A stretch of 60,467 bases of DNA from Deltaproteobacteria bacterium (GTDB lineage Bacteria; Desulfobacterota; Desulfobaccia; Desulfobaccales; Desulfobaccaceae), in NCBI GenBank assembly GCA_019309545.1, contig JAFDGA010000010.1:1-60467 (forward strand). Direction: 5' to 3'. The notes under the pieces were generated by a model. That model saw nothing but the letters and a program-made list of their open reading frames with translations. It had not been told where the DNA came from and ran no database searches. Position numbers and translations under genes: made by a program. How positions within the stretch are numbered: position 1 is the stretch's first letter; the number at the start of each line of letters is the position of its first letter. Positions 53,414 through 60,467 of this stretch are shown in pieces.

Positions 53414-53453
53414 TTGACTTTCACCAAGAATATTTGATATGACCAAATGGTCG
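53414..53453 (+). promoter_or_regulatory. tetR promoter overlapped by a TGACC-N3-TGGTC operator
   Basis: TTGACT at 53414-53419 and TATGAC at 53438-53443 are separated by 18 bases. The palindrome TGACCAAATGGTCG at 53440-53453 covers the -10 end and the expected start of transcription. It is the same core as at 54135-54148, which supports autoregulation by the TetR protein. An open frame begins at 53439, but it has no ribosome site and would hide the operator in coding sequence. Confidence 0.6.
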
Positions 53454-53468
53454 TACGAGGATTTTGCA

Positions 53469-54116
53469 GTGACCGAAACTGTTCTCCCCACTTTTCTTAA
53501 TCTACCGCAGGCCAAGCAGGACAAGATTGTGGCTGCGGCCTTGGCCGAGTTTGCCGACAAAGGTTATCAACAGGCCAGTATCAACGTCATGGTGGCCAAT
53601 ACGGGCATCGCCAAGGGTTCAATGTATCAATATTTCAAGGACAAAAAAGGAATCTTCCTCTATATTTTTGAATTTGCCATCTCCTTGGTGCGCTGCACCC
53701 TGATGCAGGTCAAGGAAGCTACCCGAGAGGAAGATTTCTTTACCCGGCTGGAGAAATCATTGCTGGCCGGAGTCGAGTTTATCCGTCACCATCCTCGCAT
53801 CTATGGAATTTATCTGAAAATTTTATTTGACCAACATGTGCCCCAACGACAGCAGTTGCTCAAGGCCATCCGCCAGTTTGCCGCCGAATATTTTCAATCG
53901 CTGCTGCGCCAGGGTCTGGAACGGGGAGAACTCCGGGCCGATCTGCCCGGCTCGGCGGTCATCTTCCTGTTGGACGCTTTGTTCGACCGCTTTCTCCAGG
54001 CCACCTGCGTGCCCTTCTTCGATGTTACCCTGGGGCTGGAACAGGCCCCGGCGGAAGAGATCGAACAACGGGTCCAAGAATTAATCGAACTGCTGCGGGC
54101 CGGGTTGGCAGGCTAA
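53469..54116 (+). CDS. TetR/AcrR-family transcriptional regulator
   Basis: A one-component regulator of 215 residues. The helix-turn-helix is near residues 15-50 (AALAEFADKGYQQASIN, then GIAKGSMYQYFKDKKGIF), followed by an all-helical ligand/dimer domain with no recognisable ligand signature. The GTG at 53469 is chosen because GAGGA lies seven bases upstream and the N-terminus then matches family members; an ATG at 53439 has no ribosome site. It lies directly before mqnE on the same strand, and matching palindromes sit at both promoters. It probably represses itself and the menaquinone operon. Confidence 0.92.
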   Translation: MTETVLPTFLNLPQAKQDKIVAAALAEFADKGYQQASINVMVANTGIAKGSMYQYFKDKKGIFLYIFEFAISLVRCTLMQVKEATREEDFFTRLEKSLLAGVEFIRHHPRIYGIYLKILFDQHVPQRQQLLKAIRQFAAEYFQSLLRQGLERGELRADLPGSAVIFLLDALFDRFLQATCVPFFDVTLGLEQAPAEEIEQRVQELIELLRAGLAG

Positions 54117-54148
54117 AATTTTTTAAATTATAAGTGACCTGCTGGTCA
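54105..54148 (+). promoter_or_regulatory. mqn operon promoter with TGACC-N3-TGGTC operator
   Basis: TTGGCA at 54105-54110 and TATAAG at 54129-54134 are 18 bases apart. The operator-like palindrome TGACCTGCTGGTCA follows at 54135-54148, directly behind the -10 box, where a bound repressor would block initiation. The mqnE ribosome site AGGAGAG starts at 54151. Confidence 0.65.
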
Positions 54149-54161
54149 TAAGGAGAGACCC

Positions 54162-55259
54162 ATGCATCGGGAGAATGGAAATTTCAGTGATCGAAAGCTG
54201 TTTCCCATCTATGAAAAGGTAAGGGCGCAAAGACGCCTGGACTTCGAGGATGGCCGGACTTTGTACCAGACCTCGGATCTGCTGGGTCTGGGCTATCTGG
54301 CCAATCTGGTCCGGGAGCGGTTGCACGGCTCTCGGGCTTATTACATTTATAATCAGCATATTAATTATTCCAATATCTGTATCAATGGCTGCCGCTTCTG
54401 TGCCTTTGGCAAGACCGCCGATGATCCTCACGCCTATGAAATGAGCCTGGAAGAGATTTTTGCCAAGGTCCGGGAGCGCCTGGACGAGCCCATTACTGAG
54501 CTCCATATTGTCGGCGGACTGCACCCCGACCTGCCATTTAGTTATTACCTGGAAATGCTCAAAGGTATTAAGGCTATCCGCCCGCAGGTCCACATCCAGG
54601 CCTTCACCGCAGTGGAAATCGCCCATCTGGCCAAAATTGCCGGGCTGTCGGTGACCGAAACCCTGGAAGCCTTAAAGGAAGCCGGCCTGGGGTCGCTGCC
54701 CGGGGGCGGGGCTGAAGTATTTAGCCCTCGTATCCGCCACGCCCTATGTCCTCGCAAGCTGTCCCCCAAAGGTTGGCTAGAGGTCGCCCAAAGCGCTCAT
54801 CGCCTGGGTCTGAAAAGCAACGCCACCATGCTCTATGGGCACATCGAAACCATTGAGGAACGGGTGAACCATCTGCTGCAGCTGCGTGTTGCCCAGGATG
54901 AGAGCGGCGGCTTTTTGGCCTTCATTCCCCTGGCCTTTCACCCCCGGAACACCCAATTAGATCATTTAAATGACACCACCGGCTTTGACGACTTGAAAAA
55001 TTTGGCAGTAGCCCGCCTGCTGCTGGACAATTTCCCCCATATCAAGGCCTTCTGGATCATGATCGGGCCTAAGATCGCCCAATTATCGCTGTCCTTCGGG
55101 GTCAATGACATCGATGGCACGGTGATCGAGGAGCGCATCACCCATATGGCCGGGGCCCAGACCGCGCAGGCCTTAACCCGGGCGGAACTGCTGCACCTGA
55201 TCCGGGAAGCCGGGCGGGAGCCCATAGAACGGGATACCCTGTATAACGCCATCTCCTGA
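54162..55259 (+). CDS. mqnE: Aminofutalosine synthase MqnE
   Basis: A radical SAM enzyme of 365 residues that joins 3-[(1-carboxyvinyl)oxy]benzoate with the adenosyl part of SAM to make aminofutalosine, the second step of the futalosine menaquinone route. The cluster cysteines are 73, 77 and 80 (CINGCRFC). LHIVGGLHPDLPFSYY and LPGGGAEVFSPRIRHALCPRKLSP are MqnE signatures, as is FIPLAFHPRNTQL. AGGAGAG precedes the ATG. Its stop overlaps the mqnC start by one base. Confidence 0.95.
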   Translation: MHRENGNFSDRKLFPIYEKVRAQRRLDFEDGRTLYQTSDLLGLGYLANLVRERLHGSRAYYIYNQHINYSNICINGCRFCAFGKTADDPHAYEMSLEEIFAKVRERLDEPITELHIVGGLHPDLPFSYYLEMLKGIKAIRPQVHIQAFTAVEIAHLAKIAGLSVTETLEALKEAGLGSLPGGGAEVFSPRIRHALCPRKLSPKGWLEVAQSAHRLGLKSNATMLYGHIETIEERVNHLLQLRVAQDESGGFLAFIPLAFHPRNTQLDHLNDTTGFDDLKNLAVARLLLDNFPHIKAFWIMIGPKIAQLSLSFGVNDIDGTVIEERITHMAGAQTAQALTRAELLHLIREAGREPIERDTLYNAIS

Positions 55260-56380
55260 TGAAAACCAATAACCCCGGACTTGCAGAAAAACTGGCCAGC
55301 GGAGAACGTTTAGGAGCCGCTGAGGCCATGGCCTTATGGGATGAGGATTGGTTGAGCCTGGGGCGTTGGGCCGATCAGGCCCGTCAGCGTCACCATCCTG
55401 AGCCCTGGGTAACCTATGTGGTCGATCGCAACATCAATTATACCAATATCTGTGTCTCGGGCTGTAAGTTCTGTGCCTTTTACCGGCGGCCCGGAGCACC
55501 GGGCGGTTATGTTCTGGAGCGCACCGCCCTGATGCAAAAATTGGCCGAAACCAAAGCCCTGGGCGGCACCGGCATTCTCCTCCAGGGCGGCCTCAATCCG
55601 GCCCTGCCCCTGGAATTTTATGAAGAATTGCTGAACTTTATTCGCCGTGATTTTGGCCTGCATATCCACGGGTTTTCACCGCCGGAGATTGTTTTTCTGA
55701 CCCGGCTTTCGGGGCTGTCGGTGGCCGAAATCCTCCAGCGGTTAATCGCCGCCGGGTTGGGATCGATTCCCGGCGGCGGCGCCGAGATTCTGGTGGACCG
55801 GGTCCGCCAGGCGATCTCCCCTCATAAATGCACGGTCCAGGAATGGCTGGCGGTGATGGAAACCGCTCATGGATTGGGTTTGCGCACCACTGCCACCATG
55901 ATGTTTGGCCATCTGGAAACCCGGGCGGAACGGGTGGAGCATCTGTTGCGCCTCCGGGAGTTGCAGGACCGCACCGGGGGGTTCACTGCCTTCATTCCCT
56001 GGAGCTATCAGCCCGGTAGCACCGCCCTGGGTGGGACTACCGCCGGAGTCATCGAATATCTCAAGACCTTGGCCATCTCCCGGCTGGTCCTGGACAATTT
56101 CGCCAATCTGCAGGTCTCCTGGGTCACCCAGGGGGCCAAGGTGGCCCAGGTGGCGTTGAAGTTTGGGGCCAATGACTTCGGCTCTACCATGATCGAAGAA
56201 AATGTAGTGGCCGCCACCGGGGTCGGGTTCCGCCTGTCGCAGGAAGAGATCATCCGGCAGATCACCACCGCCGGCTACCAGGCCCGGCAGCGGGACCACC
56301 TGTATCGCCTGGTATTAAAGAGAAGCTCTCGCCCAGACGCCAAGACGTCAAGACGCTCAAGTTTGATCTTGGCGACCTAA
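55259..56380 (+). CDS. mqnC: Cyclic dehypoxanthinyl futalosine synthase MqnC
   Basis: A radical SAM enzyme of 373 residues that cyclises dehypoxanthinyl futalosine. Cysteines 65, 69 and 72 (CVSGCKFC) bind the cluster; LLQGGLNPALPLEFYEELL, HGFSPPEIVFL, GSIPGGGAEIL and FIPWSYQPGSTAL are MqnC motifs. The last 18 or so residues (basic and Ser-rich) are encoded by the left arm of an intergenic-type inverted repeat and probably were added to the protein. It is coupled to mqnE by an ATGA overlap. Confidence 0.95.
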   Translation: MKTNNPGLAEKLASGERLGAAEAMALWDEDWLSLGRWADQARQRHHPEPWVTYVVDRNINYTNICVSGCKFCAFYRRPGAPGGYVLERTALMQKLAETKALGGTGILLQGGLNPALPLEFYEELLNFIRRDFGLHIHGFSPPEIVFLTRLSGLSVAEILQRLIAAGLGSIPGGGAEILVDRVRQAISPHKCTVQEWLAVMETAHGLGLRTTATMMFGHLETRAERVEHLLRLRELQDRTGGFTAFIPWSYQPGSTALGGTTAGVIEYLKTLAISRLVLDNFANLQVSWVTQGAKVAQVALKFGANDFGSTMIEENVVAATGVGFRLSQEEIIRQITTAGYQARQRDHLYRLVLKRSSRPDAKTSRRSSLILAT

Positions 56381-56393
56381 CGTCTTGGCGAGA
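56327..56393. repeat. Inverted repeat at the mqnC end
   Basis: An 11-bp perfect inverted repeat, CGCCAAGACGT (56338-56348) and ACGTCTTGGCG (56380-56390), plus a second pair TCTCGCC/GGCGAGA (56327-56333 and 56387-56393) that overlaps it. The unit CAAGACG also repeats in tandem. Such GCCAAGACG-type elements are common between genes in many environmental bacteria. The left arm lies inside the mqnC coding sequence. Confidence 0.6.
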
Positions 56394-56400
56394 TTAAAAA

Positions 56401-57267
56401 ATGAAGACCAACGTCGCCATTATCGCCCGGGTCGGGACACATAAAGCCTTTCAGGCGCTCGGGCTGGGGCCGCGCCTCAGCCTGGCCTACCCGACGCCGT
56501 TTGGGAGCAGCAATCCGATTCACCTCTTTACGTCCCAGGGCATGGATTTTGCGGTGCTTTCCCGCCATGGCGAGGATGGTTACCAGGTGTCGGCGCCGTT
56601 CATCAACGACCGGGCCAACCTCTACGCGCTAAAAGCATTGGGGGTGGAAAAAATCCTGGCCTGGACCGCGCCGGGGGCGATCAATGAATCCATGGCTCCT
56701 GGCCACTTGGTGGTGCCAGACGATATTTTGGATGAAGGCAAAGGCGGCCCTAACACCTTTTTCCCTAATCAGGGTCTGGGTTTTATCCGCCATAACCCGG
56801 TGTTCTGCCCGGAATTGCGCGGCCAAGTGATTCAGACCCTGCAAAACGGCCCCTTCCCGTTGCATTCCCAGGGAGTTTATGTGGCTACCACCGGCCCGCG
56901 GCTGGAAACCGCAGCGGAGATTCGCAAGTTTCAACGCCTGGGTGGCGACCTGGTAGGCATGACCCTGGTGCCTGAGGTTTTTTTGGCCCGGGAACTGGAA
57001 CTCTGCTATGTGGCCCTGGGTTATGTGGTCAACTTTGCCGAAGGCCTTAAAAATCGTCCCTATCAACCGGGGGTGTTGTTTGATGGGCTGGCCACTCCGG
57101 AGGAACTGGCCCGGGTCCAGGAAGTGGAGGCCGCCTTTGCCGAGATAGCCTTAAGATTGCTGCCGGGGCTGGCCTCAACCCCCCGCCTTTGCCCTTGCCC
57201 CCGGCTGATGGAGCGTTATCGCCGACGCGGCGATATCGGCGAGGATTGGCAAACATGGTTCCGCTAA
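56401..57267 (+). CDS. MTA/purine nucleoside phosphorylase-like protein of the futalosine pathway
   Basis: A 288-residue protein of the MTA phosphorylase family (TPFGSSNPI, RANLYALKALGV, TGPRLETAAEIRKFQRLGGDLVGMTLVPE). Two features differ from MTA phosphorylases: the N-terminal Gly-rich phosphate loop reads ARVGTH, and the purine-contact pair Asp-x-Asp is Asn211-Phe-Ala213. Asn-x-Ala is the pattern described for methylthioinosine phosphorylase, which prefers 6-oxopurines. No MqnB is present in the operon, so this protein may release hypoxanthine from futalosine, possibly as a hydrolase. It lies after mqnC and overlaps the mqnX-like gene by 13 bases. The reaction is inferred. Confidence 0.75.
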   Translation: MKTNVAIIARVGTHKAFQALGLGPRLSLAYPTPFGSSNPIHLFTSQGMDFAVLSRHGEDGYQVSAPFINDRANLYALKALGVEKILAWTAPGAINESMAPGHLVVPDDILDEGKGGPNTFFPNQGLGFIRHNPVFCPELRGQVIQTLQNGPFPLHSQGVYVATTGPRLETAAEIRKFQRLGGDLVGMTLVPEVFLARELELCYVALGYVVNFAEGLKNRPYQPGVLFDGLATPEELARVQEVEAAFAEIALRLLPGLASTPRLCPCPRLMERYRRRGDIGEDWQTWFR

Positions 57268-58493
57268 TCATGCATCAGGCCCGCTGGGTGGTGCCGGTAC
57301 GCGGCCCGGTACTGGAAAACGGGGCAGTAGTGGTCTCCGGGGAGCAGATCGTGGCGGTAGGCCCGGCCGTGGCGCTGCGCCGCCAATATGCCTGCCGGTG
57401 CTGCGACCATGGTGATGGGGCGATACTCCCGGCCTTGATCAATGCCCACATCCATTTGGAATTGTCAGCGCTGCAGGGGCGGATTGCCCCGCAATCGAGC
57501 TTTGGCCACTGGCTGGAGGCCGCTTTAGCCGAGATTGCCTGCCTTTCTCCCGCCGAGATGAGCCAGGGCGTGCGGCTGGGGTTGGCCGAACTCCGCCGCT
57601 ATGGCACTGTTATGGCAGGAGAGGTCAGCAATACCGGTCTGAGTCTGCCCCTACTTTTAGAAAGCGGCTTCGAATTTCATTACTTTCATGAATGTCTGGG
57701 GTTTGACCGGCTGGAAACTGGCCCTCTTGAAGCTGATTTTCGGATTTTCGCCAGTCCTTGGGCTTGCACCATGCCCAATTTTTCTGCCGCGGCGCATGCC
57801 CCTTATTCCCTATCCCCAGCCCTGTTTAGCCGCATTTTAGACTGGAACCGGCGCTATGGCCGCCGGAGCACCGTCCATTTGGCCGAATCATGGGAAGAGG
57901 TCCAATTCTTAAGTCAGGGTAACGGCTTTTTCCGACATTTGTTGCAACACCGGGGCCGCTGGCGGGCTGATTATCAGCCGCCGCAATGCTCGCCGGTGGC
58001 CTATCTGGACCGCCTGGGTTTCCTGGGACCTGAAACCTTAGCGGTACATACTGTCTGGCTGGACTCGGCCGACCGGGAAATCCTGGCCCGGCGCTCATCC
58101 TGGGCCGTGTTGTGCCCCCGTTCCAACCAGCTTACCGGGGCTGGATTCCCCGATCTCCCGGAACTTCATCGGGCCGGGGTGCGCCTGGCCCTGGGGACCG
58201 ATTCTCTGGCCAGCAACCAGGACCTTAACCTGTTTAATGAAATGCTGACCCTGCATCAACATTACCCAGAATTTCCCTTGGACCAACTGCTGGCCCTGGC
58301 CACCCAACAGGGGGCGGAGGCATTGGGCCGCGGTGATGATTTGGGCAGTCTCGCCTCCGGCAAAAAGGCAGCCCTGCTATTCATCCCCTTAGAGTCCGAA
58401 AGCAATTTCTGGCCCGATTTGCTGGCCGCGGGCGTGGCTGGAAAGATTTCCTGGCTCGGCGCTCCTGGTCCGGAGGGCGGATATGGGAGTTAA
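57255..58493 (+). CDS. mqnX: Aminodeoxyfutalosine deaminase-like amidohydrolase
   Basis: A metal-dependent amidohydrolase of 412 residues. INAHIHLELSAL supplies the first metal histidines, VHLAES and AVHTVWL two more, and GTDSLASN the catalytic Asp. This is the pattern of cytosine/adenosine-type deaminases to which MqnX belongs. MqnX converts aminofutalosine to futalosine by removing the 6-amino group. GAGGA lies nine bases before the ATG at 57255, and the gene overlaps the phosphorylase-like gene and mqnA. The assignment rests on family and operon. Confidence 0.83.
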   Translation: MVPLIMHQARWVVPVRGPVLENGAVVVSGEQIVAVGPAVALRRQYACRCCDHGDGAILPALINAHIHLELSALQGRIAPQSSFGHWLEAALAEIACLSPAEMSQGVRLGLAELRRYGTVMAGEVSNTGLSLPLLLESGFEFHYFHECLGFDRLETGPLEADFRIFASPWACTMPNFSAAAHAPYSLSPALFSRILDWNRRYGRRSTVHLAESWEEVQFLSQGNGFFRHLLQHRGRWRADYQPPQCSPVAYLDRLGFLGPETLAVHTVWLDSADREILARRSSWAVLCPRSNQLTGAGFPDLPELHRAGVRLALGTDSLASNQDLNLFNEMLTLHQHYPEFPLDQLLALATQQGAEALGRGDDLGSLASGKKAALLFIPLESESNFWPDLLAAGVAGKISWLGAPGPEGGYGS

Positions 58494-59304
58494 ACTGCGC
58501 TTGGGCCGCATCTGTTATATTAATGTCCTGCCGATCTATTACGCCATGGACCAGGCTTATGTGCCGAATGGGGCTGAGGTGATCTGGGGCACCCCCGCCG
58601 AACTTAACGACCGGATGTTCGCCGGCAGATTAGATGTCAGCGGCATCTCCTCCCTGGAATATGGCCGTCATTTTCATAAGTATCTACTGCTGCCGGACCT
58701 TTCCATCAGTTCACAAGGCGATGTCGGCAGCGTGTTGTTGTTCAGCCATCTCCCTTTTCATTGCCTGAGTGGCCAACAAGTATTGCTCAGTCAGAGTTCG
58801 GCCACCTCAGCCGCATTGGTCAAAATTATCCTGGCGGAAATGTATGGCGCCCGACCGTGCTATGGCTCCGGGCCGGTAAGCACACAACTGCTAGACGGCT
58901 GGGCCGCACTGCTGGCCATCGGCGACGAGGCCTTACGGCTGCGGGCCACCCGAACTTATCCCTATTTCCTTGATCTGGGGAGTGCCTGGTATGATCTCAC
59001 CGGTCTGCCGTTTGTATTCGGAGTCTGGGCGGTACGGCGCTCCTGTTTTGCCCAACACACCGCCCAGGTGCATTATCTGCATCAGAATCTGCTGATGGCC
59101 AAAGATTGGGGACTTAAGTCCTTAGAGGAAATCAGTCATCAAGCCGCTGATTTACTGGGACTGGATTACCAGACGCTATTCCACTATTATAATCAGTTAA
59201 ATTACGACCTGCAGGCCCCCCAGCGACAAGGGCTGGAGGCTTTTTACCACTATCTACTTAAATTCGGCGAACTGCCTGAAATGCCGCAACTGCGGTTTAT
59301 TTAA
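58483..59304 (+). CDS. mqnA: Chorismate dehydratase MqnA
   Basis: MqnA removes water from chorismate to give 3-[(1-carboxyvinyl)oxy]benzoate, the first futalosine-pathway step. The 273-residue protein has a periplasmic-binding-like fold without a signal peptide. LGRICYINVLPIYYAM, DVSGISSLEYGRHF, LLSQSSATSAALVKIIL and WYDLTGLPFVFGVWAVR are characteristic. It overlaps the mqnX-like gene by 11 bases. MqnD, needed later in the route, is not seen in this window. Confidence 0.93.
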   Translation: MGVKLRLGRICYINVLPIYYAMDQAYVPNGAEVIWGTPAELNDRMFAGRLDVSGISSLEYGRHFHKYLLLPDLSISSQGDVGSVLLFSHLPFHCLSGQQVLLSQSSATSAALVKIILAEMYGARPCYGSGPVSTQLLDGWAALLAIGDEALRLRATRTYPYFLDLGSAWYDLTGLPFVFGVWAVRRSCFAQHTAQVHYLHQNLLMAKDWGLKSLEEISHQAADLLGLDYQTLFHYYNQLNYDLQAPQRQGLEAFYHYLLKFGELPEMPQLRFI

Positions 59305-59365
59305 AAGTTTTCGGTTTTCTGTTTTCGATGGAATTTAAAGTCATCCGAATATGAGGCGCAAAGAC

Positions 59366-60467
59366 ATGGGCTACCCAAGCCTGCAACATTTTATCGAGGT
59401 GCTGGAGCAAAAGGGCGAGCTGCAGCGGATCTCGGAACCGGTCAGTCCGTTTCTGGAGATTACCGAAATCACCGACCGGGTCTGTAAACGGGGCGGACCG
59501 GCCTTGCTGTTCGAGAATGTGCCGGGATATGAGATGCCGGTGCTGATGAATGCCTTCGGCTCCCTCAAAAGGATGTGCCTGGCTCTGGAAGTGGACTATC
59601 TGGGGGAAATCGCGGCTGAGCTGCTCAGCTTCCTGGAGGCCGAGGCTCCCAATACCCTGATTAAGAAGCTTAAATTATTGCCGAAATTGCGGCGATTGGC
59701 CAATATCTTTCCCAAAACCGTCAGCCACGCCCCCTGCCAGGAAGTCATCTGGCGTCAGGAGAAAGTAGATCTCAGCAAAATTCCAGTCCTTACCTGCTGG
59801 CCGCAGGATGGCGGGCCTTTTATAACCCTGCCGATAGTGATTACCCACCACCCGGAGACTGGCCAGCGCAATGTCGGCATGTATCGCCTCCAGGTCTTTG
59901 ACAAGCAGACCACCGGGATGCACTGGCACCGCCATAAGGGCGGCGCCCAGCATTATCGGGTGGCCGAGGCCCGGGGCGAACGGTTGCCCGCGGTAGTGGC
60001 CCTGGGGCCGGATCCGGCCGTCACCTATGCCGCCACCGCGCCGTTGCCGGACGATCTCGATGAAATCATCTTCGCCGGATTTTTACGGCAGGAGCCGGTA
60101 GAGCTGGTGCCTTGCATTACCGTCCCGTTGTCTGTGCCGGCCAACAGTCAGATCGTCCTGGAAGGCTACCTGGAGCCCGGGGAACGCCGGCGACCATACC
60201 GGCTACTATTCCTTACCGGATGACTATCCGGTCTTTCACCTTACCGCCCTGACCCACCGCCGGCGGCCCATTTATCCGGCCACCATTGTCGGCCAGCCGC
60301 CTATGGAAGACTGCTTCATGGCCAAGGCCACGGAGCGCATCTTCCTTCCCTTGATCAAAAAACAACTGCCGGAGATCGTTGATCTTAATCTGCCGGTGGA
60401 AGGCGTTTTTCACAATCTGGCGTTTGTCTCGATTGACAAACGTTATCCCGGCCAGGCCCGCAAAGTC
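59366..60467 (+). pseudogene. mqnL: UbiD-family decarboxylase of menaquinone synthesis, frameshifted, partial
   Basis: A UbiD-type prenylated-FMN decarboxylase in the place expected for the late futalosine-pathway decarboxylase. ITEITDRVCKRGGPALLFENVPGYEMPVLMN, GMYRLQVFDKQTTGMHWHRHKGG and VLEGYLEPGER are normal. At about 60193 the reading passes directly to GDHTGYYSLPDDYPVFHL in another frame, while relatives have a Glu-Gly-Pro-Phe just before Gly-Asp. An apparent 14-nt loss fits exactly and would remove the catalytic Glu. The first frame stops at 60223. The second frame stays open to the right edge, so the 3' end is not seen. GAGG lies nine bases before the ATG at 59366. A base-calling error is possible. 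Confidence 0.8.

Follow-up and report, generated by a model that had tools for sequence, protein, structure and literature searches.

A TetR-family protein with conserved operators as a likely dedicated regulator of menaquinone supply in Desulfobacterota

The TetR-family gene at 53469-54116, for which the name mqnR (product MqnR) is proposed, very probably encodes a dedicated regulator of menaquinone supply that represses both itself and the mqn genes through the palindrome WATGACCANNTGGTCATW. The gene opens an operon (53469-60223) composed of tetR, mqnE, mqnC, a phosphorylase-like gene, an aminofutalosine-deaminase-like gene, mqnA and a ubiD-type gene, which was found in a 60,467-base stretch of DNA (hereafter the window) from a sulfate-reducer relative of the class Desulfobaccia. 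The distinguished features are as follows.

53414-53443, forward strand: tetR promoter, TTGACT (53414-53419), N18, TATGAC (53438-53443); read from the sequence, with TTGACA...TATAAT at the equivalent spot in relatives
53438-53455, no strand: operator 1, TATGACCAAATGGTCGTA, core TGACCAAATGGTC at 53440-53452; covers the tetR -10
53457-53461, forward strand: putative tetR ribosome site, GAGGA
53469-54116, forward strand: tetR (proposed name mqnR), GTG start, 215 aa; PF00440 and PF21256 above cut-off, ortholog alignment, AlphaFold2 model
54105-54134, forward strand: putative mqnE promoter, TTGGCA (54105-54110), N18, TATAAG (54129-54134); read from the sequence
54133-54150, no strand: operator 2, AGTGACCTGCTGGTCATA, core TGACCTGCTGGTCA at 54135-54148; between the mqnE promoter and ribosome site
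54162-55259, forward strand: mqnE, aminofutalosine synthase; TIGR03700, 508.5 bits, above the cut-off of 434.55
55259-56380, forward strand: mqnC, cyclic dehypoxanthinyl futalosine synthase; TIGR03699, 477.5 bits, above the cut-off of 428.1
56401-57267, forward strand: phosphorylase-superfamily gene (MTA-phosphorylase-like); PF01048; TIGR01694, 180.7 bits, below the cut-off of 274.85
57189-58493, forward strand: aminofutalosine-deaminase-like amidohydrolase; PF01979; best NCBIfam model NF006269 (aminofutalosine deaminase family), below cut-off
58483-59304, forward strand: mqnA-type menaquinone gene; PF02621, 230 bits
59351-60223, forward strand: ubiD-type decarboxylase (mqnL candidate); PF01977 and PF20695; TIGR03701 covers only 2-268 of 433

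Several of the downstream genes have peculiarities of their own. The operon contains the MTA-phosphorylase-like gene, and no mqnB is in view; the phosphorylase-like gene might stand in for the futalosine hydrolase. Position 57189 is the longest-ORF start of the aminofutalosine-deaminase-like gene, and the real start probably lies further downstream. The reading frame of the ubiD-type gene is broken near its 3′ end, with a stop after 290 aa and similarity resuming in another frame near 60190-60225; this frameshift (window 59351-60467) is either real or assembly-derived.

The likeliest start of tetR is GTG 53469, because the ATG at 53439 chosen by the ORF finder falls within operator 1 and the orthologs align from 53469. 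The encoded protein contains an N-terminal TetR_N helix-turn-helix (PF00440, 40.1 bits, cut-off 24) and a C-terminal ligand/dimer domain (PF21256, TetR_C_5-like, 33.9 bits, cut-off 27). Its AlphaFold2 model is essentially all helix (pLDDT 93.9), and the Foldseek list for this model is filled by TetR proteins. The nearest solved structure is 3nrg (profile E 2.4e-40; fold match with 29% identity, TM 0.71), the TetR protein Caur_2714 of Chloroflexus aurantiacus, which is uncharacterised and whose entry title gives no function. None of the NCBIfam TetR equivalog cut-offs was passed (e.g. MtrR, 44.7 of 280 bits; FadR, NF053878, 41.3 of 200 bits).

The core TGACCNNNTGGTC (TGACC-N3-TGGTC) was found, with zero mismatches, in only two copies in the window, at 53440-53452 and 54135-54147. 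An earlier note on this DNA had located both sites correctly, although it gave the first core 14 nt where it has 13. The same note had described the first palindrome as lying over the tetR -10 region, the second as lying directly behind TTGGCA-N18-TATAAG, and both as standing just upstream of a ribosome site. All of this was borne out: TATGAC overlaps operator 1, the spacing before mqnE is as described, and the palindromes immediately precede GAGGA (tetR) and AAGGAG (54150-54155; mqnE, ATG 54162). A TG at 53435-53436 would give the tetR promoter an extended -10, and the putative mqnE -35 falls in the 3′ end of tetR. A simple sigma-70 consensus scan of the window flagged neither promoter; their reality rests on the relatives, in which TTGACA...TATAAT is present and TTGAC is mostly located 26-31 nt upstream of GACC.

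Both operators of the window deviate slightly from the 18-bp consensus; the right outer arm of operator 1 is imperfect, with a G, versus A in 72 of 73 sites of relatives. The strict form ATGACC-N4-GGTCAY is present in only two copies in the whole 2.43-Mb genome, one at mqnE and the other in a coding region of another contig, within the start of a fumarase-like ORF (C21:28406). Elsewhere in Desulfobaccia, the strict copies inspected outside the locus were located in coding regions, and no wider regulon was found among them. A loose pattern with two mismatches was dropped, since it was swamped by chance matches.

Orthologs of the TetR protein were identified in 26 of 29 Desulfobaccia genomes (57-100% identity), and mqnE comes after tetR wherever the contig is long enough. 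One genome, 98% complete (G002), contains neither TetR nor mqnE. All Desulfobaccia loci but one (L039 of G013) have the palindrome on the tetR side. That locus has a tandem pair of operators in front of mqnE, whereas tetR has none, i.e. the operator pair is shifted to the target promoter. The mqnE-side palindrome was found in all three genomes of the window's genus and in most of the second family. It is missing in genera g2 and g6, in which the tetR-mqnE order is kept and the intergenic gap differs.

TetR orthologs are spread across Desulfobacterota, with matches at E <1e-15 in 88 of 395 genomes of the phylum. Collapsing the loci at 90% TetR identity yielded 110 non-redundant loci, in 71 of which tetR is located directly before mqnE. 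Where enough upstream sequence was available, the operator lies on the tetR -10 in 67 of 70 such loci, and two of the remaining three have one before mqnE. The prevailing pattern in the phylum is TTGACA, about 17 nt, TATAAT and then GACCANNTGGTCAT. The association of this regulator and its palindrome with menaquinone genes is repeated in dozens of related genera. For comparison, every one of the 256 tetramer half-sites was counted in the identical upstream stretches, with spacings of 0-8; shifted readings of the operator palindrome aside, the best unrelated half-site reached 4 of 70, so the conservation is not due to chance. One operator copy was found in 68 kb of tetR coding sequence. The presence of the palindrome in related tetR-mqnE loci, on which the earlier note had let its claim depend, was therefore confirmed.

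A second, mqnE-side operator was found in 17 of the 71 non-redundant tetR-mqnE loci and is thus a lineage feature, which even the sister genus lacks; in most relatives regulation would run via the tetR promoter. Co-occurrence was examined with the 77 genomes of the phylum that have the TetR at E <1e-30: mqnE is present in 69 of them, versus 141 of 318 genomes without the TetR (Fisher p = 9e-14, kinship ignored). In the TetR tree, the 71 mqnE-linked proteins and two ubiD-linked ones form a single supported group (99/98); the outgroup is very long-branched and probably badly framed, and for this reason nothing was read from the root or from the order of origins. In loci L046-L049, L051 and L053-L058 (genera g3, g9 and g10) the operator runs directly into the start codon of tetR (GGTCATG), which would leave the mRNA of this gene with no leader or almost none.

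Loci in which the regulator does not adjoin mqnE include the following.

L129 / L293:2502-3941 (G348:C10): TetR-MqnB fusion
L290 (G398), L291 (G066), L292 (G127): importer clusters of type A
L325-L327 (G034, G071, G163): importer clusters of type B

Another 31 of the 110 loci have the TetR gene in a place other than in front of mqnE and show no operator at its start; almost all of them adjoin mqnB and/or mqnD. A lack of any relation between the mqnB-linked TetRs and mqnE, although suggested at first sight, was rejected, because operators were found in trans before mqnE: GACC-N4-GGTC is present upstream of this gene in 16 of the 18 genomes with a distant TetR whose mqnE loci were examined. These sites are often doubled, about 50 bases apart. 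Since the regulator and its target lie apart on the genome, a shared neighbourhood cannot account for the operator match, and this is the strongest single result of the analysis. The same operator thus occurs at the regulator and at mqn promoters and is conserved among relatives, as expected of an mqn regulator. The proposal of the earlier note that this TetR switches the futalosine route finds its support in the tetR-side and in-trans operators; the site between tetR and mqnE, on which that proposal had also relied, is restricted to a minority of loci.

As the mqnB-linked TetRs mostly have no operator at their own promoter, autoregulation is not universal. In G328, MqnB scores 153 bits with the futalosine hydrolase model TIGR03664, above the cut-off of 124.7. 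Genome G348 encodes a natural TetR-MqnB fusion of 479 aa with TetR_N, TetR_C_5-like and phosphorylase domains, followed by mqnD. This fusion was not adopted as proof of a futalosine ligand, given that the same operator is retained in importer genomes that have no futalosine genes. Placements of the TetR other than before mqnE likewise adjoin menaquinone genes (mqnB/mqnD, ABC-menG-menA or ubiD-mqnP-ABC).

No mqnE was detectable in eight of the 77 TetR genomes (E <1e-30). In one of them (G018) the contig ends near the locus, and the other seven contain a gene for an NMT1-type binding protein of an ABC importer beside the TetR gene. Type A clusters have the order tetR, NMT1-type binding protein, ATPase, permease, menG and menA, with an operator before tetR; in G187 a cluster of this type ends at the contig end after the ATPase gene, in a genome that is only 73% complete. 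The type A prenyltransferases are MenA-like (TIGR00751, 106 and 113 bits in two and 87 in the third, cut-off 102) and not MqnP-like (about 20 bits). In G398, G066, G127 and G187, no MqnE/MqnC, no MqnA/MqnD family member and no MenD above cut-off was detected. Type B clusters, found in three genomes without mqnE, have the order tetR, ubiD, mqnP, binding protein, ATPase and permease, and operators stand in front of both tetR and ubiD; a near relative of these genomes (G235) contains mqnE, mqnC and the importer together. Phylum-wide, the binding protein is rarer in mqnE genomes (9/41 vs 201/354, p = 2e-5, kinship ignored). Clusters with the same importer, accompanied by menG-menA or ubiD-mqnP, were also seen to lack both the TetR and, in the stretch read, an operator (L330 of G122, L331 of G199, L334 of G139 and L333 of G273).

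The gene content of these loci suggests that the TetR-linked ABC importers take up a naphthoate precursor used by the neighbouring enzymes, under the same regulator. The predicted cargo is 1,4-dihydroxy-2-naphthoate for type A and 1,4-dihydroxy-6-naphthoate for type B. We propose precursor scavenging because the later enzymes that would act on the proposed cargo are encoded in each cluster. On balance we favour the view that the TetR is the mark of a broader regulon for menaquinone supply, to which undescribed ABC importers of naphthoate precursors also belong; the hosts of these importers would be menaquinone-precursor scavengers. Other bacteria have been described as using exogenous quinones (e.g. 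PMC10746273), and no dedicated importer was found in the open-access literature searched.

TetR-family dimers bind a palindrome and sterically block RNA polymerase. The MqnR dimer would likewise bind the 18-bp palindrome, and its binding to operator 1, which covers the tetR -10, would block RNA polymerase and result in autorepression, as judged from the geometry of the site. In the window's genus, the same protein bound at operator 2, between the mqnE promoter and ribosome site, would silence mqnE-mqnC and the genes that follow. Where relatives have no operator 2, a single operator would control tetR and the mqn genes jointly, with co-transcription by read-through into mqnE. As such a TetR, with the same operator, also fronts importer-menG-menA clusters in genomes where no futalosine genes were detectable, MqnR probably senses not futalosine but a late quinone or naphthoate that is common to these genomes, namely menaquinone, demethylmenaquinone or a dihydroxynaphthoate. 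Such a ligand might act as an inducer or as a feedback co-repressor.

Autoregulation is common among TetR proteins, and operator 2 is absent from 54 of the 71 non-redundant tetR-mqnE loci; the protein might then merely autoregulate, with mqnE and the downstream genes on their own or other promoters and the conserved neighbourhood a case of passive hitch-hiking. Such hitch-hiking leaves unexplained the operator before mqnE itself in the genomes with a distant TetR, as well as the linkage to mqnB/mqnD and to importer clusters, and we regard it as very improbable. Equally little weight can be given to the idea that MqnR is an activator or dual regulator of the mqn genes instead of a repressor. 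A few TetR-family members are activators, e.g. FasR of mycobacteria, and FasR (6o6n, 6o6p) is among the structural matches of the model; however, the operator spans the -10 and start region of tetR, and operator 2 is placed downstream of the putative mqnE -10, a position at which a bound protein normally obstructs RNA polymerase.

Somewhat less improbable, although still unlikely, is a FadR-like lipid regulator with an acyl-CoA ligand that tunes menaquinone to the state of the membrane, as Bacillus FadR proteins, SaFadR and FasR are found among the structural matches. Against it, the score with the FadR model is far below its cut-off (41 vs 200 bits), the best structural match is the uncharacterised Chloroflexus protein, and fatty-acid genes were not seen in the neighbourhoods examined.

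Menaquinone is central to anaerobic respiration, and a TetR protein with an operator legible by eye across a phylum provides a handle for defining its regulon. MqnR is a possible menaquinone or naphthoate biosensor, and the regulon draws attention to candidate importers through which some bacteria could subsist on precursors made by others. Searches for TetR with futalosine, for menaquinone regulators and for naphthoate transporters returned nothing on point in open-access full texts. TetR control of futalosine-route menaquinone synthesis, which the earlier note regarded as possibly undescribed, was not found in these papers, and we are apparently dealing with an undescribed dedicated control system for menaquinone supply.

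In the futalosine pathway (MqnA, MqnB, MqnC, MqnD and MqnE), to which mqnE and mqnC of the window can be assigned by curated models, no transcription regulator was found in the open-access full texts searched. TetR regulons of Proteobacteria (FabR, FadP, LiuQ, PsrA and RutR among 33 regulators) have been reconstructed by comparative genomics from conserved palindromes (PMC5343134); neither quinone nor menaquinone occurs as a word in the main text of that study. MqnR resembles TetR-family one-component repressors such as TetR, AcrR, FadR and FabR in its N-terminal HTH and all-helical ligand domain and, as predicted from the loci, in a palindromic operator on its own promoter and a local regulon. 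It differs from them in the pathway targeted, futalosine-route menaquinone synthesis. By type MqnR belongs to a known protein family, and its regulon appears to be new.
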